DNA of 64,000 bases from Promicromonospora umidemergens (lineage in GTDB: Bacteria > Actinomycetota > Actinomycetes > Actinomycetales > Cellulomonadaceae). Below, piece after piece: positions 32,454 to 47,296 of the stretch. The translations under genes were made by a program, and so were the position numbers. Under the pieces are notes generated by a model. The model saw only the letters and a list, made by a program, of their open reading frames with translations, did no database searches and had not been told where the DNA came from. The stretch lies in contig NZ_JAMTCT010000025.1 of assembly GCF_024171995.1 (NCBI RefSeq), positions 1 to 64,000 of the forward strand. The letters run 5' to 3'. Each line of letters starts with the position of its first letter. The stretch's first letter is position 1.

Positions 32454-34298
32454 TCAGACCTGGTCGGCCGGCGAGCCCACCAGTTGCCCCTGGTAGGCGG
32501 AGTTCGTCAGGAACGGCGGGAAGGCGTCCCGGAGGGCGACCTCACGGAAGATCGCTGCCGCGTCCTCGATGCGGTTGCCGTGGTCGGGTGACAGCGAGGC
32601 GACGACGTCGAGCAGGAGCGCCTCGACCCGCTCCCGGGTGACCGGCAGCTGGTCGTCGTCGGTCACGGTGCCCGAGGCGATCCACTGCCACACCTGCGAC
32701 CGCGAGATCTCGGCGGTGGCGGCGTCCTCCATGAGGTTGTCGAGCGCCGCGGCCCCGGTACCGCGCAGCCAGGCGTCGAGGTAGCGCACGGCCACCGAGA
32801 CGTTCGACCGCAGGCCGACGGACGTCACGGTCGCCCCGGCGCGGCGGACCGACGCGATGTCGAGCAGCTCGTGCTGGCCCACGACGACGTCGGGCCGCTG
32901 GCGCGCGACCTGGTTCGGCGCGTCACCGAGCACGGCGTCGAACTCAGCCTCGGCCACGGGGATGAGGTCGGGGTGGGCCACCCAGGTGCCGTCGAAGCCC
33001 GCGCCGGCCTCGCGCTTCTTGTCCGCGGCGACCTGCTGGAACGCCTTCGCGGTGACCTCCGGGCTGCGGCGGTCGGGGATGAACGCGCTCATGCCGCCGA
33101 TGGCGTGCGCCCCCCGCTTGTGGCAGGTGGCGACGAGCAGCTCGGTGTAGGCGCGCATGAACGGAGCCGTCATGGTCACCTGCGCGCGGTCGGGCAGCAC
33201 GTAGGACCTGCCACGTGTGCGGAAGCACTTGATCACCGAGAACAGGTAGTCCCAGCGCCCGGCGTTGAGTCCGGCGCAGTGGTCACGCAGCTCGTAGAGG
33301 ATCTCCTCCATCTCGAACGCCGCGGGCAGCGTCTCGATGAGCACGGTGGCGCGGATCGTCCCGCGGGGGATGCCGAGCACTTCCTGCGCGAGCTCGAACA
33401 CGTCGTTCCACAGCCGTGCTTCCTTGTAGCCCTCCAGCTTGGGCAGGTAGAAGTACGGGCCGCGGCCGCGGGCGATCAGCTCGGCGGCGTTGTGGAAGAA
33501 GTAGAGCCCGAAGTCCACGAGGCTGCCCAGGGCGTTGCTGCTGATGCCCTCGGCGTCCGTGTACCGCAGGTGCGCCTCGTCCAGGTGCCAGCCGCGAGGC
33601 CGGAAAACGATGGTCGGCAGGTCCGTGATGGACGACGACCGCAGCGTGTACTCCTTGCCCGCGTCGTTCGTGAAGCTGAGCGTGCCGCGGATCGCGTCGT
33701 GCAGGGAGAGCTGCCCCTCCACGACGTTTGGCCACGTGGGGCTGGACGCGTCCTCGGCGTCGGCCAGCCAGCACCGGGCACCGGAGTTGAGCGCGTTGAT
33801 GGTCATCTTCGGGTCGGTCGGACCGGTGATCTCCACGCGGCGGTCCTCCAGGCCGGGCGCGCGCCGCGATCCCGCGACGCGCCAGTGCGGGTCGTCGCGC
33901 ACCGGGCGGGTGGAGGCTCGGAAGTCCGGGTCGCTGCCGTCGGCGATGTCCTGGCGGCGCAGCTGGCGGCGCGCGAGCAGCTCGTCGCGCCGCGCGTCGA
34001 ACCGGTCGTGAAGGAGGGCGAGGAACCCGAGGGCGTCGGGAGTCAGGATCTCGCCGTAGCGCCGGCCGACGGCGCCGGTCACGGTGATCACGCCCCGGCG
34101 GACACCGGTCCTCGAGGCGCCCACCCCGCCGCTCGGCAGCGTGCTCGGTGCCGAGCTCCTCGGCGCCGGGCCGGCGCCGGCGCGCGCCTCCGCTGCGGCG
34201 TCGGCGCGCGCCGCAGGCGGAGTGCCGATCCCGGCCAGACCGGCGTCGGGGTCGAAGGGGTTCGCGCCCTGTGGGCGGGTGTCGATGGTCGCGGTCAT
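32454..34298 (-). CDS. aceB: Malate synthase A (glyoxylate shunt)
   Basis: 614 residues, longer than the usual ~530 because of an Ala/Pro/Ser-rich leader of about 65 residues. The enzyme condenses glyoxylate with acetyl-CoA to malate in the cytosol. Isoform A features are present: the TIM-barrel segment ITGPTDPKMTINALNSGA, LADAEDASSPTWPN, TVLIETLPAAFEMEEI and GTWVAHPDLIPVA. The C-terminal helical plug follows. Its ATG overlaps the aceA stop by one base, so aceA-aceB form one unit. Induction on acetate or C2-yielding substrates is expected through RamB-type control from the divergent gene. Confidence 0.96.
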   Translation of the reverse strand: MTATIDTRPQGANPFDPDAGLAGIGTPPAARADAAAEARAGAGPAPRSSAPSTLPSGGVGASRTGVRRGVITVTGAVGRRYGEILTPDALGFLALLHDRFDARRDELLARRQLRRQDIADGSDPDFRASTRPVRDDPHWRVAGSRRAPGLEDRRVEITGPTDPKMTINALNSGARCWLADAEDASSPTWPNVVEGQLSLHDAIRGTLSFTNDAGKEYTLRSSSITDLPTIVFRPRGWHLDEAHLRYTDAEGISSNALGSLVDFGLYFFHNAAELIARGRGPYFYLPKLEGYKEARLWNDVFELAQEVLGIPRGTIRATVLIETLPAAFEMEEILYELRDHCAGLNAGRWDYLFSVIKCFRTRGRSYVLPDRAQVTMTAPFMRAYTELLVATCHKRGAHAIGGMSAFIPDRRSPEVTAKAFQQVAADKKREAGAGFDGTWVAHPDLIPVAEAEFDAVLGDAPNQVARQRPDVVVGQHELLDIASVRRAGATVTSVGLRSNVSVAVRYLDAWLRGTGAAALDNLMEDAATAEISRSQVWQWIASGTVTDDDQLPVTRERVEALLLDVVASLSPDHGNRIEDAAAIFREVALRDAFPPFLTNSAYQGQLVGSPADQV

Positions 34299-35647
34299 CA
34301 GAACTGCGCCGCCTCGGTAGAACCGGCCAGGGCGGTGGTGGCGGAGTCGGGGTTGAGCGCCGTCGCCACGCGGTCGAAGTAGCCGGTGCCGACCTCGCGC
34401 TGGTGCTTGGTGGCGGTGTAGCCGCGCTCCTCGGCGGCGAACTCCGCCTCCTGCAGCCGCACGTACGCCGACATCTGCTCGCGGGCGTAGCCGTGGGCCA
34501 GGTCGAACATCGAGTAGTTCAGGGCGTGGAAGCCGGCCAGGGTGATGAACTGGAACTTGAAGCCCATGGCGCCGAGCTCACGCTGGAACTTCGCGATGGT
34601 GTCGTCGTCCAGGTGCTTCTTCCAGTTGAACGACGGGGAGCAGTTGTAGCTCAGCATCTGGTCCGGGAAGTCTGCCTTGACGGCCTCGGCGAACTTGCGT
34701 GCGAGCTCGAGGTCGGGCGTGCCGGTCTCCATCCAGATGAGGTCGGAGTACGGAGCGTAGGCCTTGGCCCGGGCGATGCACGGCTCGATGCCGTTCGTCA
34801 CCTTGTAGAAGCCCTCGGCGGTGCGCTCGCCGGTGATGAACGGCAGGTCCCGCTCGTCCACGTCGGACGTGATCAGCGTCGCGGCCTCTGCGTCGGTGCG
34901 GGCGATCACGATGGACGGAACGGAGGCGACGTCGGCCGCGAGGCGGGCCGCGTTCAGCGTGCGCACGTGCTGCTGCGTCGGGACGAGCACCTTGCCGCCG
35001 AGGTGGCCACACTTCTTCTCCGAGGCGAGCTGGTCCTCCCAGTGCACGCCCGCGGCGCCGGACTGGATCATCGACTTCATCAGCTCGTACGCGTTGAGCG
35101 GGCCACCGAAGCCGGCCTCGGCGTCGGCCACGATCGGGGCGAGCCAGTCGCGGGTCGGCGTGCCGTTCTCGGAGACGTCGATCTGGTCGGCGCGCAGGAG
35201 CGCGTTGTTGATGCGCCGGACCACTGCGGGCACCGAGTTGGCGGGGTAGAGCGACTGGTCGGGGTAGGTCTGGCCCGAGAGGTTCGCGTCACCCGCGACC
35301 TGCCAGCCGGACAGGTAGACGGCCTGCAGGCCCGCCTTGACCTGCTGCACGGCCTGGTTTCCGGTCAGCGCCCCGAGGGCGTTGACGTAGTCCTCCTCGT
35401 GCAGCTGCCGCCACAGGCGCTCGGCGCCGCGGCGGGCGAGCGTGCTCTCCTCGCCGACCGAGCCGCGCAGCGCGACGACGTCCTCGGGGGTGTAGGTGCG
35501 CTCGATACCGGCCCATCGCGGGTCGGAGTCCCAGGACTGCTGCAGCTCCGCGGCCGTCTGCACCTGGTCGCCGGTGCGCACGGGCTTCGACGCGGTCGTC
35601 GCGGGCACGGTCGCCTCGTCCGTTGAATCGATGGTGGGTGCGCTCAT
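34298..35647 (-). CDS. aceA: Isocitrate lyase (glyoxylate shunt)
   Basis: 449 residues, typical of the prokaryotic form. It splits isocitrate to succinate and glyoxylate. The signature [13 protein letters not shown] with the catalytic Cys, the metal-binding [10 protein letters not shown], and [14 protein letters not shown] are all present. With aceB it forms the complete shunt. Transcription is divergent from ramB and shares a 139-bp control region that contains an AGAAGAA/TTCTTCT inverted repeat. A start ATG with AGGAGAT-like sequence upstream (GAGAAGGAGATCGCC on the minus strand) is convincing. Confidence 0.97.
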
Positions 35648-35745
35648 GGCGATCTCCTTCTCGGTGGAACGTCGTCACCGCGCCTGCCGGGTGACGTGTT
35701 ACGACCTTCTGCCCTGCGCAACCCACTTCTCAAGCAGATCTGAGT

Positions 35746-35765
35746 AGAAGAAATCAAGTTCTTCT
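35746..35765. promoter_or_regulatory. Candidate operator between aceA and ramB
   Basis: AGAAGAA-ATCAAG-TTCTTCT is an exact 7-bp inverted repeat with a 6-nt spacer. The region is far more AT-rich than its surroundings and carries further CTTCT half-sites at 35705 and 35726. It is a plausible site for RamB or another regulator of the shunt, although it is not identical to the corynebacterial RamB motif I recall. Confidence 0.5.
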
Positions 35766-35786
35766 GTTGAACGGAAGCCTCCTCGT

Positions 35787-37406
35787 ATGTCACCCTCGGG
35801 CATGGCAGGAACCACCGGCAATGGCAGAACCGCGCGAAACGTGACTTCTTCGCGTTCTACGCAGAACGGCGTAAGCCAGGCAACGGGCCGGCCGCGCGGT
35901 CGGGTACCGGGTCAGGCGCTCGGCCGGGTGCCCGGCCAGGCGTCGGCGCCTGCCCCTGGTCAGGCAGATGCCGAGCCGGACGCCCTCACGATCGGCCGCC
36001 GCATCCGGCACCTCCGGACCAGCAGGGGGATGACGCTCGACGACCTGGCCTCGGCGATCGACCGGGCACCGTCGCAGGTCAGCACGCTGGAGAACGGCAA
36101 GCGGGAGCCCAAGTTCTCGCAGCTGCAGGCCATCGCCCGGGCGCTCGGCACCGGCGTCGACGACCTGCTGTCGGCGGAGGCGCCGTCGGAGCGCGATGCG
36201 CTGGAGATCGAGCTGGAGCGCGTGCAGCGCGGCCCGCTGTTCGCGTCGCTCGGGATCGAGGGTGTGCGTATCGGCAAGTCGCTGCCGCACGACGCGCTCT
36301 CGACCATCCTGGCGCTGCACCGGGAGCTCGAGCGGCTGCACATCGAGCGCGCGGCCACGCCGGAGGAAGCCCGCCGGGCCAACGGAGAGCTCCGTGGCGA
36401 CATGCGCGCCAAGGACAACTACCTGCCCGAGCTGGAGCAGGTCGCCAAGGGCCTGCTCGCGGACGTCGGGCACACGTCCGGCCCGCTGCCGCAGCGCATG
36501 GCGGCCGAGATCGCCGCACACCTCGGCTTCACGCTGCACTACGTGAGCGACCTGCCGCACTCGACGCGATCGGTCATCGACACCCGCAACCGGCGGCTCT
36601 ACCTGCCGTCCAAGGGATTCCGCGGCCGTTCCAACACGCGGTCGGCGCTGCTGCAGGCGCTCGCCTCGCACGTGCTCGACCACACCGAGCCCGGAGACTA
36701 CGGCGAGTTCCTGCGACAGCGCGTCGAGGCGAACTACCTGGCGGCGGCGCTCATGGTCCCGGAGAAGCCGGGCGTGAAGTTCCTGCGCGACGCCAAGGAC
36801 GAGCGCGCCATCGCCATCGAGGACCTGCGCGACGCCTTCGGGGTGTCGTTCGAGACCGCGGCGCACCGGTTCACCAACCTCGCGACGCGGCACCTCGGCA
36901 TCCCGGTGCACTTCATGAAGGTCCACGAGTCGGGGATCCTGCACAAGGCGTACGAGAACGACGGCGTGCGGTTCCCTGCGGACGCCCTCGGCGCCGTCGA
37001 GGGCCAGCACGTGTGCAAGCAGTGGACCGCGCGGCGGGTGTTCGACGTCGAGGACCGGTTCAACCCGTACGCGCAGTACACCGACACGCCGTCGGGCACC
37101 TACTGGTGCACCTCACGAGTCGAGAACACGTCGGACGGCGCGTTCTCCGTGTCCGTCGGCGTGCCGTTCGCGGACGTCAAGTGGTTCGAGGGGCGCGAGA
37201 CGACGGAGCGGAACATGTCGCTGTGCCCCGACGAGTCGTGCTGCCGGCGTCCGCCCGAGGAGCTGTCCGCGAAGTGGGGCGACTTCGCCTGGCCCTCGGC
37301 GCGACCCCACGCCTCGATGCTGGCGGCGATGCCCTCAGGTGCGTACCCGGGCGTGGAGACCACGGAGGTCTACCGGTTCCTGGAGCGGCACGCGCCGGAA
37401 GGCTGA
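35787..37406 (+). CDS. ramB: RamB/ScfR-type regulator (XRE helix-turn-helix plus short-chain fatty acyl domain)
   Basis: 539 residues. A disordered ~65-residue leader precedes an XRE helix-turn-helix (IGRRIRHLRTSRGMTLDDLA, SQVSTLENGKREP). Then come an IrrE-like region (DNYLPELEQVAKGLLAD, NRRLYLPSKGFRG, HVLDHTEPGDYGEFLRQ) and a C-terminal domain with clustered Cys (SLCPDESCCRRPPEE). This is the layout of RamB, which in corynebacteria and mycobacteria represses or activates acetate and glyoxylate genes. Its position divergent from aceA-aceB supports that role. The start is uncertain: ATG at 35787 or 35802, neither with a clear Shine-Dalgarno. Confidence 0.88.
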   Translation: MSPSGMAGTTGNGRTARNVTSSRSTQNGVSQATGRPRGRVPGQALGRVPGQASAPAPGQADAEPDALTIGRRIRHLRTSRGMTLDDLASAIDRAPSQVSTLENGKREPKFSQLQAIARALGTGVDDLLSAEAPSERDALEIELERVQRGPLFASLGIEGVRIGKSLPHDALSTILALHRELERLHIERAATPEEARRANGELRGDMRAKDNYLPELEQVAKGLLADVGHTSGPLPQRMAAEIAAHLGFTLHYVSDLPHSTRSVIDTRNRRLYLPSKGFRGRSNTRSALLQALASHVLDHTEPGDYGEFLRQRVEANYLAAALMVPEKPGVKFLRDAKDERAIAIEDLRDAFGVSFETAAHRFTNLATRHLGIPVHFMKVHESGILHKAYENDGVRFPADALGAVEGQHVCKQWTARRVFDVEDRFNPYAQYTDTPSGTYWCTSRVENTSDGAFSVSVGVPFADVKWFEGRETTERNMSLCPDESCCRRPPEELSAKWGDFAWPSARPHASMLAAMPSGAYPGVETTEVYRFLERHAPEG

Positions 37407-37446: not shown

Positions 37447-38376
37447 TCATGCCGCCCCGTCGAGGCCCAGCATGCGGTCCCGCTGGCGCGCCATCTCCTC
37501 CAGCAGCGCCTGCACGACGGCGGCCACGGCCGGCCGGCGCCAGGACTCGCTGCGGATCACCGCCCAGTAGGGCAGCCGCTCGGTCACCTCGTCGGGCAGG
37601 AGCCGCACCAGGTCGTCGTGCCGGTCGGCCATGAAGCAGGGCAGGAACCCGAGCCCGGCGCCGGCGCGGGTGGCCTCCACGTGCACGAACACGTTCGTCG
37701 AGGCCAGTGCGTCCTGCATGCCCGGCACGAGGCGGCGCGGTGCGTCGAGGTCGTTGACCTGGAGCATGGAGTCGACGAAGTAGACCAGCCCGTGCTCGGA
37801 CATCTCGGCGACCGTTGCCGGTGTGCCGTGCCGCGCCAGGTAGTCGCGCGAGCCGTACATGCCGAGCACGTACTCGCCCAGGAGCAGGGCCTTCGCCCGC
37901 TGGACGCTCGGCTGGCCGACGACGACGTCGACGTCGACCCCCGAGCGGTGGTGCGTCGCCACCCGGGTGACCGTGACGAGCTCGACCGACAGCTCGGGGT
38001 GCGCGCCCCGGAGCCTGGCGATGGCGGGGGAGGCGACGTACGCGCTGAACCCGTCGGTCGCCGTCATCCGCACGACCCCGGTGATCGGGTCGGCCTCGGT
38101 GTCGCCAGCCACCAGCCGGTCGACCGCGTCCGACACGGCCTCGCCCGCCCTGGCCGCGCGGCGGCCGAGCGACGTGAGCTCCCAGCCGTCCGCTCCACGC
38201 ACCAGGAGGCGACCGCCGAGGGCGCGCTCCAGCGCCGTGATGTTGCGGGCGACCGTGGTGTGGTTGACGCCGAGCGCCTGCGCCGCCGTCGTGTAGCGGC
38301 CGGTGCGGGCCACCTCCAGCAGCACCAGGAGCTGGTCGGCGACCTGGCCGGCCGGCGGGTCGTTGCGGGCTGGCAT
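37447..38376 (-). CDS. LysR-type transcriptional regulator
   Basis: 309 residues. The N-terminal winged helix reads LLVLLEVARTGRYTTAAQALG and HTTVARNITALERALGG; the effector-binding domain fills the rest, ending ALLEEMARQRDRM. It is divergent from the MHS-type transporter that heads the 3-hydroxybutyrate gene run and probably controls it. A perfect inverted repeat at 38408-38427 lies in the shared region. The gene appears leaderless: TAGCGT ends 6 nt before the ATG. The inducer could be 3-hydroxybutyrate or acetoacetate, but this is inference from context. Confidence 0.93.
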   Translation of the reverse strand: MPARNDPPAGQVADQLLVLLEVARTGRYTTAAQALGVNHTTVARNITALERALGGRLLVRGADGWELTSLGRRAARAGEAVSDAVDRLVAGDTEADPITGVVRMTATDGFSAYVASPAIARLRGAHPELSVELVTVTRVATHHRSGVDVDVVVGQPSVQRAKALLLGEYVLGMYGSRDYLARHGTPATVAEMSEHGLVYFVDSMLQVNDLDAPRRLVPGMQDALASTNVFVHVEATRAGAGLGFLPCFMADRHDDLVRLLPDEVTERLPYWAVIRSESWRRPAVAAVVQALLEEMARQRDRMLGLDGAA

Positions 38377-38407: not shown

Positions 38408-38427
38408 GGTGTGCATTCCTGCACACC
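38408..38427. promoter_or_regulatory. LysR-type operator, perfect inverted repeat
   Basis: GGTGTGCA-TTCC-TGCACACC is an exact 8-bp inverted repeat. It lies about 32 bp from the LysR start, where the -35 of that gene's leaderless promoter would be, and 129 bp before the transporter ATG. The position suits autorepression plus activation of the divergent operon, the classic LysR arrangement. Confidence 0.7.
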
Positions 38428-38555
38428 GCGTCTGCCCAACTCGTCATTGCCCCGCACAGTGCTTCGCGGGAACACTCTGGCGAGTCACAGTGGCGGGCCG
38501 TGCGGATCGCACCGGCCGGCCACTCCCCGTGTCAGAGTCGACACCAAGGAGCAGC

Positions 38556-39920
38556 ATGTCTGCACAGCAGAGCACCGAAGCACCGGACGACCGGTCGCTG
38601 ATCCGGCGCATCGTCGCCGCCTCGATGGCCGGCACCGTCGTCGAGTGGTACGACTTCTTCCTCTACGCGACCGCCGCGGCGCTCGTGTTCAACAAGGTCC
38701 TCATGCCGGAGACGGGCAACGAGTACGACGCGATCATCGCGGCGTTCGTGACCTATGCCGTCGGCTTCCTCGCCCGCCCCCTTGGTGGCGTCATCTTCGG
38801 CCACATCGGCGACAAGGTGGGGCGCAAGCACACCCTGCAGCTCACGATCCTGCTGATCGGGGTCGCCACCGTGCTCATGGGTTGCCTCCCCACGTTCCAG
38901 CAGGTCGGCTTCCTCGCACCGGCGCTCCTCGTCGTGCTGCGGTTCGTGCAGGGCGTCGCGCTCGGCGGCGAGTGGGGCGGCGCGGTGCTGCTCGTGGCGG
39001 AGCACAGCAAGGACGACGAGCGGGCCCGCTGGACGGCGTGGCCGCAGGCCGGTGTGCCGGCCGGGAACCTGCTCGCGACCGTCGTGCTCTACACGATGTC
39101 CGGCGTCCTGAGCGAGGCCGAGTTCCTCGCCTGGGGCTGGCGCGTCGCCTTCTGGCTGTCGGCCGTCGTCATCGTCGTCGGCTACTACGTCCGGACCCGG
39201 GTCTCCGACGCCCCGATCTACGAGGAGACGAAGGCCCAGATCGACCAGGGTGCCAAGAGCTACGGCGTCTTCGAGGTGATCAAGCGCTACCCGCGCGGCG
39301 TCCTGACCGGCATGGGCCTGCGGTTCGCGGAGAACATCCTCTACTACCTCGTCGTGAGCTTCTCGATCGTCTACCTCGGTACCGCGCTCGGCATGGACAC
39401 CACCCGCATCCTCGGCGTCGTCGCGGCGGCGCACGCGTTCCACTTCGTGGTGATCCTGGTCGTCGGACGCCTCGCCGACAGCATCGGCCGGAAGCCGTTG
39501 TACGTGGTAGGTGCCGTCCTCGGTGCGACGTGGTGCTGGTTCGCCTTCCCCGCGATGGACACCCGGAACGTCTGGGTGATCCTCGCCGTCCTCATGGCCG
39601 GCCTGCTGTTCCACGCCATGATGTACGCGGTGCAGCCGGCGATCATGGCCGAGATGTTCCCGACCCGGATGCGCTACTCAGGCGTCTCGATCAGCTATCA
39701 GGTCACCTCGATCGTCGCGGGCTCCCTCGCCCCGATCCTGGCCGTCACCTGGCTCAAGAACACGGGCTCCTGGTGGCCCACAGCTGTCTACATGCTGGTC
39801 GCGTCCGCGATCACCCTGGTAGCGGCGCTCGCACTGCGCGAGACCCGGGGCGCCTCCCTGCACGACCTCGACGCCGAGGACCAGGCGCGCGAGCGGGCGC
39901 TCGCGGAGGGCCGGTCGTGA
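38556..39920 (+). CDS. MHS-type MFS transporter (probable 3-hydroxybutyrate or related carboxylate importer)
   Basis: 454 residues, ATG with AAGGAG at 6 nt. Twelve membrane segments are predicted from hydrophobic blocks. Metabolite:H+ symporter features are visible: SMAGTVVEWYDFFLYATAA at the start, GHIGDKVGRKHTL in the first cytosolic loop, and PTRMRYSGVSISYQ near helix 10. Members carry carboxylates such as shikimate, ketoglutarate, proline-betaine or benzoate-type acids. Being first in a run that oxidises 3-hydroxybutyrate suggests that substrate, but transport specificity cannot be read from the sequence. It overlaps the next gene by 4 nt. Confidence 0.9.
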   Translation: MSAQQSTEAPDDRSLIRRIVAASMAGTVVEWYDFFLYATAAALVFNKVLMPETGNEYDAIIAAFVTYAVGFLARPLGGVIFGHIGDKVGRKHTLQLTILLIGVATVLMGCLPTFQQVGFLAPALLVVLRFVQGVALGGEWGGAVLLVAEHSKDDERARWTAWPQAGVPAGNLLATVVLYTMSGVLSEAEFLAWGWRVAFWLSAVVIVVGYYVRTRVSDAPIYEETKAQIDQGAKSYGVFEVIKRYPRGVLTGMGLRFAENILYYLVVSFSIVYLGTALGMDTTRILGVVAAAHAFHFVVILVVGRLADSIGRKPLYVVGAVLGATWCWFAFPAMDTRNVWVILAVLMAGLLFHAMMYAVQPAIMAEMFPTRMRYSGVSISYQVTSIVAGSLAPILAVTWLKNTGSWWPTAVYMLVASAITLVAALALRETRGASLHDLDAEDQARERALAEGRS

Positions 39921-40666
39921 GCACCACCCTCGAGGGCCGCCGGGCACTCGTGACCGGCGGTGCCAGCGGCATCGGCGCCGCGTGCGCCCGGGAGCTCGCG
40001 GCGCGTGGCGCGCACGTGACCGTGGCCGACGTGGACGGCGCCGGCGCCGAGGCCGTCGCCGACGAGGTCGGTGGCGACGTCTGGGTGGTGGACCTGTCCG
40101 ACACCCGGGCGCTCGACAGCCACGAGCTGGACACCGACGTGCTGGTGAACAACGCGGGCCTCCAGCGGGTCAGCGCCATCCAGGACTTCGTGCCGGACGA
40201 CTTCAGGCTGGTCCACCGGATCATGCTGGAGGCACCGTTCCTGCTGGTCCGTGCGGCGCTGCCCGGCATGTACGAGCGGGGCTGGGGCCGGATCGTCAAC
40301 ATCTCCTCCGTGCACGGGCTGGTCGCGTCGCCGTTCAAGTCGGCGTACGTGTCGGCCAAGCACGGGCTGGAGGGGCTGTCGAAGGTGGCGGCCCTCGAGG
40401 GCGGGGAGCACGGCGTCACGAGCGTCTGCGTCAACCCCGGGTACGTACGCACCCCGCTGGTGGAGGAGCAGATCGCCGAGCAGGCGAAGGCCCACGGCAT
40501 CCCGGCGTCAGAGGTGATGGCTAAGGTCATGCTCGCGGAGTCCGCAGTGAAGCGGCTCGTGGAACCCCACGAGGTCGCCTCGCTGGTCGGGTGGCTCACC
40601 GGGCCGGACGGGGCAATGGTGTCCGGCGGCTCGTGGACGATGGACGGCGGATGGAGCGCGCGATGA
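39917..40666 (+). CDS. bdhA: 3-hydroxybutyrate dehydrogenase (short-chain dehydrogenase)
   Basis: 249 residues from a GTG that overlaps the transporter stop (GTGA). The SDR layout is complete: NAD-binding VTGGASGIGAA, NNAG near 79, catalytic Ser131 in NISSVHG, and Tyr144/Lys148 in YVSAKHG. The substrate region SVHGLVASPFKSAYVSAKHG is characteristic of D-3-hydroxybutyrate dehydrogenase. Reaction: 3-hydroxybutyrate + NAD+ to acetoacetate + NADH in the cytosol. The location ahead of a CoA-transferase and thiolase agrees well with this call. Confidence 0.9.
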   Translation: MSTTLEGRRALVTGGASGIGAACARELAARGAHVTVADVDGAGAEAVADEVGGDVWVVDLSDTRALDSHELDTDVLVNNAGLQRVSAIQDFVPDDFRLVHRIMLEAPFLLVRAALPGMYERGWGRIVNISSVHGLVASPFKSAYVSAKHGLEGLSKVAALEGGEHGVTSVCVNPGYVRTPLVEEQIAEQAKAHGIPASEVMAKVMLAESAVKRLVEPHEVASLVGWLTGPDGAMVSGGSWTMDGGWSAR

Positions 40667-40755
40667 CGAAGGGTGCAGTGGAGGATACGGGCCGAGGAAC
40701 GAGGCACGTGCCCGGAACGGAACACGAGGAATCGCGCCAGGAGGTACTGCGGTGA
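40663..40755 (+). CDS. Possible 30-residue coupling peptide between bdhA and the AtoE-type gene
   Basis: An ATG overlaps the bdhA stop (ATGA) and opens a 30-codon frame whose own stop overlaps the GTG of the next gene (GTGA). The start MTKGAVEDTG resembles the start of that gene, MTKDAVTKT, and the DNA around the two starts is also alike. It may be a relic of a duplicated start region or a short frame that passes ribosomes from bdhA to the transporter. No homologue is known to me, so its reality as a protein is unproven. Confidence 0.4.
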   Translation: MTKGAVEDTGRGTRHVPGTEHEESRQEVLR

Positions 40756-42122
40756 CGAAGGATGCTGTGACCAAGACCAGGAACCCCTTTGCCGCCGCCA
40801 TGCGCCCGGTGAACGCCGTCGTGGAGCGGTTCATCCCGAGCGCGCTGGTGTTCGCAGTGCTGCTGACGTTCGTCGTGGCGGCGCTCGCGCTCCTGCTGAC
40901 CGACGCCGGCCCCACCGCCGTGCTCACCGGCTGGGGCGACGGGCTGTCGGGGCTGCTCGCGTTCATGACCCAGATGGCGCTCGTCCTGCTGCTGGGGCAC
41001 ATGCTCGCCAACACGCGGCTGGTGCGTCGCGGGCTGGCCCTGGTCGCCGCGCTGCCGCGGAGCCCGGTGCAGGCGTACGTGTTCGTGGCGGTCCTCGCCT
41101 CGGCGCTGTCGCTGGTGCAGTGGGGGCTCGGCCTGGTGGCCGGCGGCCTGCTCGCCCGGGAGGTGGCGGCCCAGATGCGGGCCAAGGGCGTGCGCGTGCA
41201 CTTCCCGCTGCTGGTCGCCGCGGGGTTCTCGGGCTTCGTCGTCTGGCACATGGGATACACCGGGTCGGGCCCGCTGACGGCGGCGACCGCCGACTCGTTC
41301 GTCGTCGAGCAGCTGGGGGAGACGATCCCCGTCTCCGCGACCACGTTCGCGCCGTGGAACCTGATCGCGGCGGTCGTCACGGTGGTCGTGGTCGCCGGGG
41401 CGCTCGCCCTGGTGGCTCCGCGCGGGAACGACCGCGTGGTCGAGCTCGAGGTCGACGCGCGCGCCGCCGAGGTCGAGATCGAGCAGCCGGTGACCCCGGC
41501 GGACCGCCTCGACGCGAGCCGGGTCCTGACCACCCTGACGGGCCTTGGCCTCGTCGCCTACCTGGTCGTCTACTTCGCCGACGGCGGCACGCCGACCCTC
41601 GACATCGTGAACTGGACGTTCCTCGCGCTCGTGCTCCTCCTGGTGCGCAGCCCGTTCGAGGTCGCTGCGCTGGTCAAGAACGCCGCGGCCAACGTGGGCG
41701 ACATCCTGCTGCAGTTCCCGCTGTACGCGGGCATCCTCGGGATCATGACGGCGACCGGCCTCATCCAGATCTTCAGCGACGCGATAGTGAGCGTGTCGAC
41801 GCCGCAGACGTTCGGGGCGCTCGCGTTCCTGGCGGCGGGCGTCGTGAACTTCTTCGTGCCGTCGGGCGGCGGGCAGTTCGCGGTCCAGGCGCCGATCCTG
41901 CTCGACGCCGCCACCCAGCTCGGCGTCGACCCGGCGGTCGCGATCATGGCCGTGGCGTACGGCGACCAGTGGACCAACATGATCCAGCCGTTCTGGGCGC
42001 TCCCGCTGCTCGCCATCGCCGGCTTGAAGGTGCGCGACATCCTGGGATACACCACGGTGACACTGCTGGCCTCGGGGATCGTGTTCGCGGCGACCCTGCT
42101 GATCGTCGGGCCCGGGGCCTGA
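40752..42122 (+). CDS. AtoE-type short-chain fatty acid transporter
   Basis: 456 residues, starting at a GTG after CAGGAGGTACTGC. It has about ten to twelve hydrophobic segments and the features of the AtoE/TIGR00366 family: FIPSALVFAVLLTF near the start, GFSGFVVWHMGYTGSGPL in the middle, and VNFFVPSGGGQFAVQAPI plus GDQWTNMIQPFWALPLL near the end. AtoE-like permeases take up short-chain fatty acids and acetoacetate. Its position between bdhA and the CoA-transferase subunits mirrors ato operons. It gives the run a second carboxylate transporter beside the MHS protein. Confidence 0.92.
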   Translation: MTKDAVTKTRNPFAAAMRPVNAVVERFIPSALVFAVLLTFVVAALALLLTDAGPTAVLTGWGDGLSGLLAFMTQMALVLLLGHMLANTRLVRRGLALVAALPRSPVQAYVFVAVLASALSLVQWGLGLVAGGLLAREVAAQMRAKGVRVHFPLLVAAGFSGFVVWHMGYTGSGPLTAATADSFVVEQLGETIPVSATTFAPWNLIAAVVTVVVVAGALALVAPRGNDRVVELEVDARAAEVEIEQPVTPADRLDASRVLTTLTGLGLVAYLVVYFADGGTPTLDIVNWTFLALVLLLVRSPFEVAALVKNAAANVGDILLQFPLYAGILGIMTATGLIQIFSDAIVSVSTPQTFGALAFLAAGVVNFFVPSGGGQFAVQAPILLDAATQLGVDPAVAIMAVAYGDQWTNMIQPFWALPLLAIAGLKVRDILGYTTVTLLASGIVFAATLLIVGPGA

Positions 42123-42150
42123 CCTGATCCCGATCGGAATGGAGTCAACG

Positions 42151-42990
42151 ATGACCGAAGCGACAAGCAGCGGGTTCGACAAGGTGGTCGCGAGCGCGGC
42201 CGACGCGGTAGCCGACATACCGGACGGCGCGTCCCTGGCCGTCGGCGGGTTCGGCCTCTGCGGCAACCCGATAGCGCTGATCGAGGCGCTGCTGGCGCAG
42301 GGAACGACCGGCCTGTCCGTGGTGAGCAACAACTGCGGCGTCGACGACTGGGGGCTCGGCGTGCTGCTGAACGCCCAGCGGATCCGCAAGATGACCAGCT
42401 CGTACGTGGGGGAGAACAAGGAGTTCGAGCGCCAGTTCCTCTCGGGCGAGCTCGAGCTGGAGCTCACCCCGCAGGGCACCCTCGCCGAGAAGCTGCGCGC
42501 CGGTGGCGCCGGCATCGCCGCCTTCTTCACGCGCACGGGGGTGGGCACCCAGGTGGCCGACGGCGGCCTCCCGCGCAAGTACGACGGTGCCGGTGGCATC
42601 GCGATCGCGTCGCCCGCCAAGGAGGTGCGCACCTTCACGACCGCCGGCGGCGACCCCGCCGAGTACGTGCTGGAGGATTCGATCAGCACCGACTTCGCGC
42701 TGGTGCACGCCCTGCGTGGCGACCGGCACGGGAACCTGGTGTTCAACAAGTCGGCCCGGAACTTCTCGCCCCTCGCGGCGATGGCGGGGCGCGTGTGCAT
42801 CGCCCAGGTCGAGGAGCTCGTCGAGCCGGGGGAGATCGACCCGGACACCGTGCACCTGCCTGGCGTCTACGTGCACCGCATGGTGCACGTCGGCACCGAC
42901 ATCGAGAAGCGGATCGAACGGCGCACGGTCGCCACGCCGTCGTCCACCACCACGCCGTCCACCACCACGCCGTCCACGAAGGGGGCCTGA
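42151..42990 (+). CDS. scoA: 3-oxoacid CoA-transferase subunit A
   Basis: 279 residues from an ATG with TGGAGT upstream. The glycine-rich start VGGFGLCGNPIALIEALL and later GGIAIASPAKEVRTF and GDRHGNLVF are family signatures. With subunit B it moves CoA from succinyl-CoA to acetoacetate, giving acetoacetyl-CoA. The usual A subunit ends near residue 235-255; here a tail with three near-identical Thr/Ser/Pro repeats (TTTPSTTTPST) is added. The B gene follows after 3 nt. The name scoA is used for the succinyl-CoA type; an atoD/atoA type using acetyl-CoA cannot be excluded. Confidence 0.92.
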   Translation: MTEATSSGFDKVVASAADAVADIPDGASLAVGGFGLCGNPIALIEALLAQGTTGLSVVSNNCGVDDWGLGVLLNAQRIRKMTSSYVGENKEFERQFLSGELELELTPQGTLAEKLRAGGAGIAAFFTRTGVGTQVADGGLPRKYDGAGGIAIASPAKEVRTFTTAGGDPAEYVLEDSISTDFALVHALRGDRHGNLVFNKSARNFSPLAAMAGRVCIAQVEELVEPGEIDPDTVHLPGVYVHRMVHVGTDIEKRIERRTVATPSSTTTPSTTTPSTKGA

Positions 42991-42993
42991 CCC

Positions 42994-43644
42994 ATGGCGC
43001 TGACACGACACGAGATGGCCGCGCGCGCCGCGCGCGAGCTGACCGACGGCATGTACGTGAACCTGGGCATCGGGCTGCCGACGCTCGTGCCGAACTACGT
43101 GCCGGAGGGCCGGCACCTGGTGCTGCAGTCGGAGAACGGGATCCTGGGCGTTGGGCCGTACCCCACGGAGGACGAGGTGGATCCCGACCTGATCAACGCG
43201 GGCAAGGAGACGGTGACGCTGCTGCCCGGCTCGTCGATCTTCGACTCCGCGACGTCGTTCGGGATGATCCGCGGCGGCAAGATCGACGCCGCCATCCTCG
43301 GCGGCATGCAGGTGTCAGCCACGGGCGACCTGGCCAACTGGATGATCCCGGGAAAGATGGTCAAGGGCATGGGCGGCGCCATGGACCTGGTGCACGGCGC
43401 CGGCCGCGTGATCATCCTGATGGAGCACGTGGCGCGCGACGGGTCGCCGAAGATCCTGCGCACCTGCTCGCTGCCGCTGACCGGCAAGGGTGTGGTGAAC
43501 CGGATCATCACGGACCTGGCGGTGCTCGACGTGACGCCGTCCGGCCTGGTCCTGCGGGAGCTCGCGCCAGGGGTCACGGCCGACGAGGTCGTCGAGAAGA
43601 CGGAGCCGGACCTCACGGTGGACCTCGCCGAGGCGGCGAGCTAG
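42994..43644 (+). CDS. scoB: 3-oxoacid CoA-transferase subunit B
   Basis: 216 residues. The catalytic Glu47 lies in LQSENGILG, where the glutamyl-CoA thioester forms during the reaction. [29 protein letters not shown] and [19 protein letters not shown] are typical of SCOT subunit B. Together with the preceding A subunit it forms the heterodimer that activates acetoacetate. Spacing of only 3 nt between the genes implies co-expression in equal amounts. Confidence 0.95.
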
Positions 43645-43705
43645 CCCCTCCCACCGAGCTGTATCACCCGGTCGTCCCGTAGTTGACTCGATGAGGAGCT
43701 GCTCC

Positions 43706-45967
43706 ATGCCACTGCCCATGCGCCGTCGGCCACCAGGTCGCCGATCCCTGAGCCGAACGCTGAGCCGAACCCTGACCAGCGTGGCGGTCACCGCCCTCGT
43801 CGTCCCGCTCGCCGTCGTGACGTCCGCGGCGGCGGAGGAGGACGGCACATCGGGCGGTGACACCGGCGGCCTCCGGATCGTCACCGTCTCGAGCCGGCCG
43901 GACGCCGTGAGCGGCACGGAGACCCTCGCGCGCGTCACCGTGCCGGCAGGGGTCGAGCCGGTCGAGGTGACGGTGACCCGCGACGGCGTCGACGTGACGG
44001 AGTCCTTCCGAGCCGACGGCAACGGCCTGCTCGGCCTGGTCGACGGGCTGGATCCAGGCCGTCACAGGCTGGTCGCGCGGGCGGCAGGCACAGCGGCGTC
44101 GGCGGAGCGGATCGACGTGCACCCGGCCACCGGACCGGTGTTCTCCGGGCCGCAGCAGGAGCCGTTCTTCTGCGAGACGGCGGAGTACCGGAGCCCGGCG
44201 GGAACGCCAGGGGGCGCGCCGGTCGACGAGGACTGCTCGCTCACGACCCGGGTCGAGTACCTCTACCGCACGACAGGGGGGAAGTTCGCGGCGCTGCCGG
44301 ACCCGGCGCGGCACCCGGCGGACCTCGCCACGACCACGACGCTGGACGGCGCGGAGGTGCCGTACATCGTCCGGGTCGAGATCGGTACGGCGAACCGCGG
44401 GATCTACGAGATCGCGAGCCTGCACGACCCGGCGGGCGAGGCGGAGCCGACGGCGCACCAGCGCAGCGCGGGATGGAACGGCCGGTTGGTCTACACGCTC
44501 GGCGGAGGCTGCCGGGGTGGCTGGTACCAGCAGGGCAGCGTGACGGGCGGCGTGCTGGTCGACCCGATGCTGTCGCGCGGCTTCGCCGTCGCCTCGAACA
44601 CCCTCAACGCGTTCGGCAACAACTGCTCGGACCTGCTGACCACCGAGTCGCTCGCGCTGACCAAGGAGGTGTTCGTCGAGGCGTACGGCGAGCCCGACCA
44701 CACGATGGGCTGGGGGTGCTCCGGCGGCGCGTACCAGGCGCACCAGGCCGCCGACTCCTACCCCGGCCTGCTGGACGGGATCATCGTGGGTTGCGGCTTC
44801 CCTGACGTCGGCTTCGGCACCTCGCAGAAGCTGGCCGACGCGCGCCTGCTGCACACGTGGTTCACCGGCGACGAACCTGGCGCGGACACCTTCACACCCC
44901 AGCAGCAGCTCGCCGTGTCGGGCTTCGGGGTGCACCAGTCGATCGCCGCGCAGAGCGACGGCGCCAAGCGTCTCGATCCTGACGCCGAGTTCGACGGGTC
45001 GGTCCCGCTGGAGCTGCGCTACGACGCCGAGACCAACCCGACCGGGGCGCGTGCGACCGTCTGGGACCACACCCGCAACGCGTACGGGATCGACCGCGGC
45101 ACGGGGTTCGCGCTGCGCCCGCTCGACAACGGCGGGGTGCAGTACGGCCTCGATGCCCTGCGGGACGGCGCGATCAGCGTGGACCAGTTCCTCGACCTGA
45201 ACGAGGGGATCGGGGGCTTCGACATCGACGCCGAGCCCACGGCGGAACGGATCCGTGCGGATCCGGCGGCCCGGCGGGCGGCGTACCGGACGGGACGCAT
45301 GCTCGACGGCGGAGGCGGGCTGGCCCGGACGCCGATCATCGACTTCCGCGCGTACACCGACGATCTGGCGGGCGGCGACATCCACATGCGGTACCACTCG
45401 TTCTCCACGCGGGATCGGCTGATCGAGGCCAACGGTGACGCCGACAACCAGGTGATGCTCGTCCAGGACAACACCTACGGGGGCTTCGACCCCGCGAACC
45501 CGGTGCTCGTCCAGGCGCTCGAGCAGATGGACCGGTGGCTCCGCGCCGTCCGCGCCGACGAGTCCGGGCGTGACCCGCACGACGTCGTCGTCGACAGCAA
45601 GCCCGCCGACCTGGTCGACGCCTGCTGGACGCCTGGCGCCATCGGTTCGCCGGAGGAGCTGGAGAGCAAGAAGGTCGTCGAGGACATCCGGCCCGACGCC
45701 GGCCGGTGCGACGACCTCTACCCGACGTTCACCTCCCCGCGGATCGTCGCGGGCGGCCCGCTCGCCAGCGACGTGATCACGTGCCGGCGGACGGCGCCGG
45801 ACCAGGCCGACTACCCGGCGACGTCCACGCGCCAGTGGCACCGGCTCCGCCAGGTCTTCCGGGACGGGGTGTGCGACTACGGGCGTCCCGGGGTCGACGA
45901 GGTCCCGATGGGCGGCACCTGGGCGTTCTTCTCCGCGCCCGGCCGGTGGGACTTCGCGGGGGAGTGA
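43706..45967 (+). CDS. Secreted DUF6351-type protein, predicted serine esterase
   Basis: 753 residues from the ATG that follows GAGGAG; an ATG at 43691 lacks one. An Arg-rich head and hydrophobic core (TSVAVTALVVPLAVVTSAAA) form a Sec signal peptide cleaved near residue 43. An Ig-like domain (about 50-120) comes next, then a large alpha/beta-hydrolase-like region with GRLVYTLGGGCRGGWYQ and the nucleophile-elbow GCSGG around Ser339. Many Cys are scattered through the mature protein, as expected for an exported enzyme. The family has no function I know for certain. Its place between CoA-transferase and thiolase genes suggests it hydrolyses 3-hydroxybutyrate oligomers or a related ester outside the cell. 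Confidence 0.8.
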   Translation: MPLPMRRRPPGRRSLSRTLSRTLTSVAVTALVVPLAVVTSAAAEEDGTSGGDTGGLRIVTVSSRPDAVSGTETLARVTVPAGVEPVEVTVTRDGVDVTESFRADGNGLLGLVDGLDPGRHRLVARAAGTAASAERIDVHPATGPVFSGPQQEPFFCETAEYRSPAGTPGGAPVDEDCSLTTRVEYLYRTTGGKFAALPDPARHPADLATTTTLDGAEVPYIVRVEIGTANRGIYEIASLHDPAGEAEPTAHQRSAGWNGRLVYTLGGGCRGGWYQQGSVTGGVLVDPMLSRGFAVASNTLNAFGNNCSDLLTTESLALTKEVFVEAYGEPDHTMGWGCSGGAYQAHQAADSYPGLLDGIIVGCGFPDVGFGTSQKLADARLLHTWFTGDEPGADTFTPQQQLAVSGFGVHQSIAAQSDGAKRLDPDAEFDGSVPLELRYDAETNPTGARATVWDHTRNAYGIDRGTGFALRPLDNGGVQYGLDALRDGAISVDQFLDLNEGIGGFDIDAEPTAERIRADPAARRAAYRTGRMLDGGGGLARTPIIDFRAYTDDLAGGDIHMRYHSFSTRDRLIEANGDADNQVMLVQDNTYGGFDPANPVLVQALEQMDRWLRAVRADESGRDPHDVVVDSKPADLVDACWTPGAIGSPEELESKKVVEDIRPDAGRCDDLYPTFTSPRIVAGGPLASDVITCRRTAPDQADYPATSTRQWHRLRQVFRDGVCDYGRPGVDEVPMGGTWAFFSAPGRWDFAGE

Positions 45968-46021: not shown

Positions 46022-47296
46022 ATGACTGACCCGAGCACCACTCCGGGAGGCGCCACGAGCGCCGGACCGGGTGCAGAGAACGGCGCTGACAAGACCAGCG
46101 CCCAGAAGAACAGGGCTGACGACGTGGTGATCGTCTCAGCGGCGCGGACGCCGCAGGGACGGCTGAAAGGTTCGCTGGCCACGCTGAGCGCCGTCGAGCT
46201 GGGCGCGGTGGCGGCGCGACGCGCCCTGGACGGCGCGGGGGCACTGGCCGCCGAGGTCGACAAGGTGGTCTTCGGCCAGGTGATCCAGGCGGGGGCAGGG
46301 CAGAACCCGGCCCGGCAGACGGCGGTCGCCGCCGGCGTCTCCTGGGAGGTGCAGGCGGTCACGGTCAACAAGGTCTGCCTCTCCGGGCTCACGGCGATCA
46401 TCGACGGCGCACGGCTGCTGCGGACGGGCGAGGCCGCCGTGGTGCTCGTGGGCGGGCAGGAATCGATGACGAACGCACCGCACATGCTGCCCGGGTCCCG
46501 GTTCGGGTTCGGCTACGGCCCCGCGGAGCTCCTGGACGCGACGGCGCACGACGCCCTGACCGACGCGTTCGACGGCGTCTCTATGGGCATCTCGACGGAG
46601 GACCACAACTCGGGCTCCGTGTTCGTGTCCCGCGAGGAGCAGGACGCGATTGCCGCTGCCTCCCACCAGCGGGCCGCGGCGGCGGCGAAGGACGGGGTGT
46701 TCGAGGCGGAGCTCGCGCCGGTGTCGGTGCCGCAGCGCCGCGGCGAGCCGGTCGAGGTGCGCACCGACGAGGGCGTCCGGCCCGACACGACGCCCGAGTC
46801 GCTGGCGAAGCTGCGCCCGGCGTTCGCGGGCGAGGGGACGCTGACGGCGGGCAACTCGTCGCAGATCTCCGACGGCGCCTCGGCGCTCGTGCTCACCACG
46901 CGCGGCCGTGCGGAAGCGGCGGGGGTGCCCGTGCTCGCGACGGTTCGCGCGCACGGCCAGGTGGCCGGCCCGGACAACTCGCTGCACTCCCAGCCGGCCC
47001 GGGCGATCGCCCAGGCTCTGGAGCGGCAGGGGTGGACGGCTGACGATCTCGACGTCGTCGAGATCAACGAGGCGTTCGCCGTGGTGGTCGGCGTGTCCGC
47101 GAAGGCACTGGGCGTCCCGCTGGACCGCGTCAACGTGCACGGCGGGGGGATCGCGCTGGGGCACCCTGTCGGGGCGTCCGGGGCCCGCATCGCCGTCCAC
47201 GCGGCGCACGAGCTGGCGCGGCGCGGGGGTGGCAGGGCCGCCGTCGGCCTGTGCGGTGGCGGAGGCCAGGGCGAGGCGCTCCTCCTGGAGTACTGA
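46022..47296 (+). CDS. Acetyl-CoA acetyltransferase (thiolase)
   Basis: 424 residues, ATG preceded by the near-ideal AAAGGAGGT. A disordered Ala/Gly leader of ~33 residues precedes the thiolase fold. Acylation Cys119 sits in VNKVCLSGLTA; the second-half signatures EINEAFAVV, HGGGIALGHPVGASGAR and CGGGGQGEA give the catalytic His and Cys. It cleaves acetoacetyl-CoA with CoA to two acetyl-CoA, finishing the pathway encoded upstream. The reverse, condensing direction is also possible for this class. It closes the plus-strand run and is followed by a nested double hairpin. Confidence 0.95.
   Translation: MTDPSTTPGGATSAGPGAENGADKTSAQKNRADDVVIVSAARTPQGRLKGSLATLSAVELGAVAARRALDGAGALAAEVDKVVFGQVIQAGAGQNPARQTAVAAGVSWEVQAVTVNKVCLSGLTAIIDGARLLRTGEAAVVLVGGQESMTNAPHMLPGSRFGFGYGPAELLDATAHDALTDAFDGVSMGISTEDHNSGSVFVSREEQDAIAAASHQRAAAAAKDGVFEAELAPVSVPQRRGEPVEVRTDEGVRPDTTPESLAKLRPAFAGEGTLTAGNSSQISDGASALVLTTRGRAEAAGVPVLATVRAHGQVAGPDNSLHSQPARAIAQALERQGWTADDLDVVEINEAFAVVVGVSAKALGVPLDRVNVHGGGIALGHPVGASGARIAVHAAHELARRGGGRAAVGLCGGGGQGEALLLEY

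Follow-up and report, generated by a model that had tools for sequence, protein, structure and literature searches.

A predicted exported tannase-like DUF6351 protein from a 3-hydroxybutyrate operon of Promicromonospora, with its only invariant histidine after strand 7

The DNA analyzed here (the window) is a stretch of 64,000 nucleotides from Promicromonospora umidemergens, positions 1 to 64,000 of contig NZ_JAMTCT010000025.1. It contains a 3-hydroxybutyrate operon (Table 1), in which a gene for a protein of the DUF6351 family is placed between the gene for subunit B of 3-oxoacid CoA-transferase, which ends at position 43644, and the thiolase gene, which starts at position 46022. Promoter- and terminator-like sites were no more frequent in the operon than in shuffled sequences, and no Rfam match was found. 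This DUF6351 protein and its putative active site are the subject of this work.

Table 1. Genes of the 3-hydroxybutyrate operon and features of the DUF6351 protein encoded in it
Feature	Coordinates	Strand	Basis or remark
LysR-family regulator, divergent from the operon	37447..38376	-	PF03466, PF00126
Major facilitator superfamily metabolite/H+ symporter (MHS type)	38409..39920	+	Best model TIGR00883, below its cut-off
3-Hydroxybutyrate dehydrogenase (short-chain dehydrogenase/reductase, SDR)	39896..40666	+	NF009093, 260.7 bits (cut-off 258); TIGR01963, 296.3 bits, below cut-off of 307.05
Short-chain fatty acid transporter	40752..42122	+	PF02667
3-Oxoacid CoA-transferase subunit A	42139..42990	+	TIGR02429, above cut-off
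3-Oxoacid CoA-transferase subunit B	42994..43644	+	TIGR02428, above cut-off
DUF6351 (PF19878) protein, 753 aa, predicted exported tannase-like serine hydrolase	43706..45967	+	Translation, profile search, GAGGAG at 43693-43698
Signal peptide-like N terminus, residues 1-44	43706..43837	+	Read from the translation
N-terminal all-beta domain, residues ~56-140	43871..44125	+	AlphaFold2 secondary structure; block pLDDT mostly >80
Cys269 (44510-44512) and Cys307 (44624-44626), putative disulfide	44510..44626	+	Both in 41 proteins, neither in 22
Nucleophile elbow GCSGG, Ser339 codon 44720-44722	44714..44728	+	Gly337 and Ser339 in 63/63; junction of strand 5 and helix
Cys338 (44717-44719) and Cys363 (44792-44794), putative disulfide	44717..44794	+	Both in 29 proteins, neither in 34, never singly
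Asp367, candidate catalytic acid after strand 6	44804..44806	+	Asp in 59 and Glu in 4 of 63; putative role
Lid-like insertion between strands 6 and 7, residues ~376-540, low confidence	44831..45325	+	Model 1; matches tannase-type lid by strand order
His560, only invariant His, after strand 7; candidate catalytic base	45383..45385	+	63/63; putative role
Acetyl-CoA C-acyltransferase (thiolase)	46022..47296	+	TIGR01930, above cut-off

Translation of positions 43706-45967 of the forward strand gives a protein of 753 amino acids that carries WGCSGGAYQAHQ, with Ser339 (codon 44720-44722) in the motif GCSGG, which confirms what a preliminary description of this DNA had reported. The start at 43706 is supported by a ribosome-binding-like GAGGAG (43693-43698) located 7 bases 5' of the ATG; the longest frame opens 15 bases upstream of it. 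The protein matches PF19878 over positions 1-654 of the 655-position profile (E = 5.1e-231, 769.3 bits versus the cut-off of 22.4) and is therefore a full-length member of the family. Judging from the translation, residues 1-44, with their Arg-rich start, hydrophobic stretch, and Ala-rich cleavage-like site, mark the protein as probably exported, and all 10 Cys residues fall within the mature part. Literature searches under DUF6351, PF19878, and “Tannase-like family” found no paper describing an activity. The preliminary description needs correcting in that the family does carry a label: PF19878 is already listed by Pfam as a “Tannase-like family of unknown function,” so its fold is not new. 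In the context of Rhs proteins, the name DUF6351 is presumably a digit swap for DUF6531, a domain of those proteins. The available part of the only paper found with the name DUF6351 attaches it to Rhs/type VI effectors (PMC10434147); this was not used as evidence.

A bare GxSxG motif is weak evidence, since about 0.5 such motifs are expected in a shuffled mature protein and the real one has a second copy at residues 47-51, so its conservation and structural context were tested. DUF6351 is not a rare family. Of 396 sampled genomes from the window's phylum, 26, including the window's own genome, have a match above the Pfam cut-off (>80 bits in 25), as do 14 of 398 genomes from a second phylum, that of a Ramlibacter-labelled assembly (>300 bits in 8). 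Named genomes contributed 13 loci, and 11 of the 15 plasmid records with a match were taken into the analysis (H2, H12, H14, and H15 were left aside); no relatives were found in the phage records or viral contigs searched. The weakest matches from both phylum samples were excluded; four of these (in G097, G353, G552, and G604) coincide with tannase genes, and others, judged by the position of the Ser, presumably resemble S9 peptidases. Two copies of other entries (L090 and L091, duplicating L011 and L014, respectively) and both open reading frames of L101, a single gene split over frames, were dropped before counting, and fragments or weak matches (L037-L042, L054-L061, and L063, as well as the fragments at G347:C25 and G326:C265) were not taken. 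The final alignment consists of 63 proteins, the window's included, with 29-83% identity to the latter (61 of the 63 measured; L084 and L089 left out). Gly337, Ser339, and His560 are invariant throughout, as are Cys156, Cys177, Cys640, Cys693, and Cys723, and residue 367 is always acidic (Asp in 59 proteins and Glu in 4).

AlphaFold2 models were built for the mature window protein with 13 relatives (14 of the 63 sequences) and, from the same 14 sequences, for a Phenylobacterium-labelled homologue. In the first model (mean predicted local distance difference test [pLDDT] 71.4, predicted template modeling score [pTM] 0.72), numbered as the protein minus 44, Ser339 lies between strand 5 (288-294) and a helix (296-307); these are followed by strand 6 (314-318), strand 7 (500-506), strand 8 (538-544), and a long helix (555-573), the strand names being our assignment on this model. 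The second model (mean pLDDT 68.1) repeats the order of these elements, and in both, strand 5 ends at the Ser and the invariant His falls in the segment that joins strands 7 and 8. Foldseek matched the first model to feruloyl esterase C (FaeC; 2.8e-8), the PET-plastic enzyme MHETase (1.0e-7), feruloyl esterase B (FaeB; 4.1e-7), and tannase (5.9e-6), while the best matches of the second model were MHETase (3.5e-8) and FaeB (4.4e-7). VIA-align of the first model gave Z scores of 13.0-14.5 among the 50 matches listed, nearly all of them alpha/beta-hydrolases by title. An all-beta domain, predicted with high confidence, stands in front of the hydrolase part.

With a core sheet and a nucleophile elbow after strand 5, the protein is, as modeled, a member of the alpha/beta-hydrolase superfamily, and Ser339, being both invariant and positioned at the strand-helix elbow of each model, is more than a chance occurrence. 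The two models and the two Foldseek searches thus support the exported alpha/beta-hydrolase with an elbow at Ser339 proposed in the preliminary description, export being probable. That description had also named two observations that would speak against the proposal; a hydrolase core is present in both models, and Ser339, far from being poorly conserved, is found in all 63 proteins. By fold and nucleophile, as seen in the models and the alignment, the esterase idea is well supported, and a serine hydrolase can be considered very likely.

The relationship to tannases is evident in a part of the catalytic domain. Profile comparison of the 63 DUF6351 proteins with 13 tannases by hhalign (E = 6.6e-12, 30% identity) covers residues 257-362, and over this stretch the sequence similarity is of the kind that marks common ancestry of the two catalytic domains. 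The window protein does not fall within the Tannase family proper, as its PF07519 match (residues 256-389) reaches 14.9 bits versus the cut-off of 29.8. Outside residues 257-362 the alignment was forced to full length and is of low confidence: there, Trp611, invariant in all 63 proteins, falls opposite the tannase Trp 19 residues past the catalytic His; His560 falls three residues after the tannase Asp; and a lower-threshold version sets Cys668/Cys693 opposite the C-terminal Cys pair of tannases. DUF6351 proteins resemble the tannase/feruloyl esterase/MHETase group (PF07519) in the homologous catalytic stretch, the elbow Ser, and the long insertion between strands 6 and 7, and feruloyl esterases and MHETase are the top solved-structure matches of both models; by the low-confidence alignment, the Trp after the strand-8 loop is probably the same as in tannases.

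In contrast to tannases, at least 12 of which (among the 13 aligned) keep the His after strand 8, DUF6351 proteins have no conserved His in this position. Their strand 8-helix F loop contains some His, at no fixed place, in 14 of the 63 proteins and none in the window protein, and the only invariant His of the family, His560, forms part of a GD-x-H segment located past strand 7 and before strand 8. In a 2024 classification of the superfamily, section 2.7 places the catalytic His in the strand 8-helix F loop and allows the acid to move to strand 6 (PMC11878206). The same rule for the His and the acid appears in the available text of a 2020 study of 40 families (PMC7034887), and SulM, in the available part of its description, has an ordinary His (PMC11298585). 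According to the alignment and the modest-confidence models, DUF6351 departs from this rule, which does not define the fold. In the portions of the literature on unusual alpha/beta-hydrolase histidines that were available, no report was found of a family with the His after strand 7. What seems to be new, from the aligned sequences, is that the tannase-type strand-8 His is not conserved and the only invariant His comes after strand 7. The simplest reading, proposed on the basis of the alignment and the models, has the triad shifted one strand earlier, Ser339-Asp367-His560, in which His560 would probably be the catalytic base and Asp367 might, with less assurance, be the acid. Of the earlier expectation, the hydrolase core and the elbow Ser are borne out by the models; the sequences speak against an Asp and a His placed near Ser339 in the usual arrangement.

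Several observations speak against the moved triad. TM-scores against the esterases reach only about 0.2-0.4, which is why the models were used for the fold and the strand order only. Both models are modest, each drawing on 14 sequences; pLDDT averages 55 and 46 in the blocks that contain His560, and Asp367 lies within a stretch of pLDDT <50 in the first model. In the forced tannase alignment, strand 7 itself has only a gap as its counterpart. Asp367 is matched to a conserved oligopeptidase B Asp that is not known to be catalytic there, and other candidates for the acid are available in Glu225 (62/63) and Asp378 (acidic in 62/63). The alignment is poor in the strand 8-helix F loop, where indels occur, so that the His found there in a minority of the proteins might belong to an ordinary triad, with an unrecognized, badly aligned catalytic residue after strand 8 and a structural His560. 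This appears quite unlikely, given that 49 of the 63 proteins, the window's among them, have no His in that loop, nearly all the aligned tannases keep theirs, and no His other than His560 is invariant. The lack of conservation of the canonical His and of the tannase Cys-Ser...His-Cys bridge could also point to a pseudo-enzyme that lost the strand-8 His and kept Ser339 and His560 for binding or folding. Retention of Ser339 and the elbow Gly at such levels of divergence, along with one His and an acid, is the pattern of an active site, and a pseudo-enzyme seems very improbable.

In feruloyl esterases and MHETase, whose triad is Ser-Asp-His, the Cys beside the Ser is bonded to the Cys beside the His, as in the S225-D492-H528 triad and the C224-C529 bridge of MHETase (available part of PMC6461665). 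The corresponding CS-D-HC motif of tannases, with its disulfide between Cys-Ser and His-Cys, is not found in DUF6351, and the window protein has no His-Cys pair. Unlike in tannases, the Cys that adjoins the nucleophile, Cys338, would pair with Cys363 near the end of strand 6; because the presence of one tracks the other exactly, the tannase bridge appears to have no counterpart and to be replaced by this one. Of the many Cys residues remarked on in the preliminary description, some can thus be accounted for as disulfides, with two pairs deduced from perfect co-occurrence.

The link to 3-hydroxybutyrate was examined in 13 Promicromonospora genomes, and 150 genomes of the family were searched for DUF6351. 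All 13 have matches to the core of the operon, namely LysR, the dehydrogenase, both CoA-transferase subunits, and thiolase (LysR and thiolase are partial in G922), and 12 of the 13 operon stretches have a match to the symporter. The short-chain fatty acid transporter (40752-42122) is matched in 5 of the 13, including the window's. Directly before the operon, the window encodes malate synthase- and isocitrate lyase-like proteins and a RamB-like regulator (32454-37406; named by reading the translations); as these glyoxylate genes adjoin the operon, acetyl-CoA made by the operon could feed the glyoxylate shunt next door. DUF6351 is present in 3 of the 13 genomes, each time between CoA-transferase B and thiolase, and, among the 150 family genomes, was not detected outside Promicromonospora. 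In the 10 genomes without it, the matches to these two flanking genes are ~30-105 bases apart.

Six of these 10 genomes have a PF10503 match above the cut-off 12-14 kb from CoA-transferase B, so that DUF6351 occurs in three genomes, a depolymerase insert in six others, neither in four, and both in none. The copy from locus L188, the only one tested against NCBIfam, scores 181.4 bits (cut-off 150) with NF050058, “extracellular catalytic domain type 1 short-chain-length polyhydroxyalkanoate depolymerase,” and has a signal-like start; its counterparts in the other five genomes are 78-79% identical. In G825, G871, and G905, the insert takes up about 9-10 kb between the flanking RamB-like gene and LysR in a regular order; for G858 and G899 the sequence read does not extend to the RamB-like gene, and G922 shows a disturbed order. 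The insert is common to the loci of all six genomes (L185, L188, L189, L191, L193, and L194); in L191, where the order is disturbed, two insert genes gave no match. The tree of five operon proteins unites the six depolymerase genomes in a single clade and shows the three DUF6351 genomes at scattered positions. Accordingly, DUF6351 was probably present in the ancestor and lost on several occasions (or acquired more than once), and the mutual exclusion amounts to approximately one event.

The DUF6351/depolymerase pattern weakly favors a role in the use of 3-hydroxybutyrate esters in Promicromonospora, and a number of facts count against it. The chance of finding no overlap is 0.12, and the six genomes are a single clade. 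The depolymerase gene itself is at the stated distance of 12-14 kb from CoA-transferase B, and in L188 a branched-chain-type ATP-binding cassette (ABC) transporter, an acyl-CoA ligase, and a second alpha/beta-hydrolase are encoded between it and LysR, which means that the insert may be there for a different substrate. Elsewhere in the window's genome there is a single sub-threshold PF10503 match (E = 1.9e-4), and other depolymerase types were not searched for. Finally, the absence of DUF6351 from 10 of 13 similar operons implies that it is dispensable for 3-hydroxybutyrate use.

Beyond this genus, a family-wide link to 3-hydroxybutyrate was considered and rejected, as only 3 of the 63 members, all from Promicromonospora, lie with homologues of the operon's CoA-transferase. 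None of the 60 others adjoins homologues of the window's 3-oxoacid CoA-transferase (E <= 1e-12; several loci end at contig ends), which makes 3-hydroxybutyrate esters an unlikely substrate for the family as a whole. Leaning the other way are thiolase homologues in two loci (L092, 34%; L096, 42%), SDR homologues (30-36%) in six (L064, L068, L093, L096, L110, and L111), and a CaiB-type CoA-transferase gene ~6 kb from DUF6351 on one Variovorax plasmid. No 3-hydroxybutyrate dehydrogenase model was among the best 25 NCBIfam matches listed for three of the SDR neighbors (Phenylobacterium, Cupriavidus) or among the 8 matches of one from Geodermatophilus. Elsewhere, DUF6351 adjoins genes for a Bug-type tripartite tricarboxylate transporter binding protein and a sensor kinase-like protein (two Variovorax plasmids, L105 and L106), lies among glycoside hydrolases (a Caulobacter plasmid), has SDR and hydrolase neighbors near aromatic-degradation genes (Cupriavidus), or is found next to a TonB receptor and an SDR (Phenylobacterium) or aldehyde-oxidase-type genes (Modestobacter and Geodermatophilus). 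One Variovorax plasmid has four DUF6351-matching places. Since the neighbors differ between loci, the substrate probably varies across the family, and the earlier suggestion that the operon hints at the substrate class holds inside Promicromonospora, where the gene is optional cargo, and not for the other loci.

A tannase-like esterase with another substrate, such as plant aromatic, acetyl, or carbohydrate esters, whose place in the operon is incidental, would fit several of these observations: the closest folds are feruloyl esterases and MHETase, the operon context is confined to the three Promicromonospora members, the gene is optional even there, and the Caulobacter and Cupriavidus copies have glycoside hydrolase and aromatic-degradation surroundings, respectively. 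Such an explanation has to contend with the slot between CoA-transferase B and thiolase, which is kept in three species scattered on the operon tree, and with the depolymerase-like gene in an insert adjoining the same operon in six sister genomes; it is regarded as rather unlikely.

Comparison with other hydrolases sets DUF6351 apart from several known systems. For oligopeptidase B (S9), the profile comparison matches 52 positions spanning the elbow and strand 6 (E = 9.4e-5), and two of its chains are among the 50 Foldseek matches listed; however, the sequence match is limited to that segment, and the esterases score higher by Foldseek. 3-Hydroxybutyrate-oligomer hydrolase (3HBOH, PF10605), an exported enzyme, is similar in length (about 700 amino acids), has its Ser in a glycine-rich elbow, and would act on a related substrate if the proposal is true, but its triad has the ordinary order Ser302, Asp593, His629 (as read from invariant columns in the five aligned sequences). 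Membership of DUF6351 in this family was rejected (hhalign probability of 0.3% for 14 versus 5 sequences; no Pfam match at E <= 1). No 3HBOH match was found in the 13 Promicromonospora genomes or in control genomes, although another search turned up this family in 8 of 200 genomes. Type 1 polyhydroxyalkanoate (PHA) depolymerases (NF050058/PF10503) are likewise serine hydrolases with a signal-like N terminus and are tied to the 3-hydroxybutyrate operon in the six sister genomes; unlike them, the DUF6351 protein has a different length and no PF10503 or NF050058 match at E <= 1, so it is not assigned to this type. Neither 3HBOH nor PHA depolymerase chains are among the 50 matches listed by Foldseek and VIA-align, which excludes nothing.

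The best explanation, in which we place moderate confidence, is that of a secreted serine ester hydrolase of the tannase/feruloyl esterase/MHETase type with a shifted triad and, in this genus, a substrate related to 3-hydroxybutyrate. In such an enzyme, Ser339 would attack the ester carbonyl with the assistance of His560, which would extend from the strand-7 loop, and of Asp367 at the end of strand 6. For Promicromonospora, and for this genus only, 3-hydroxybutyrate esters are a plausible substrate, for which we see an even chance. The acid released would most likely be (R)-3-hydroxybutyrate (or acetoacetate), coming from extracellular oligomers or polymer; it could be imported through one or both of the operon transporters, then oxidized by the dehydrogenase, activated by the CoA-transferase, and split by thiolase. 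A bolder version, offered tentatively and rated as somewhat doubtful, holds that the whole acid-base pair is one strand back (strands 5-6-7 instead of 5-7-8 or 5-6-8), that this family-wide exception arose near the tannases, and that in Promicromonospora the protein stands in for an extracellular PHA depolymerase.

If His560 is indeed the base, DUF6351 would be an exception to the rule that places the His of this very large superfamily in the strand-8 loop, and annotation that looks for a His after strand 8 would call such enzymes dead. If the substrate proposal is true, a secreted relative of tannases and MHETase acting on 3-hydroxybutyrate esters would also represent a new type of bioplastic-oligomer hydrolase.

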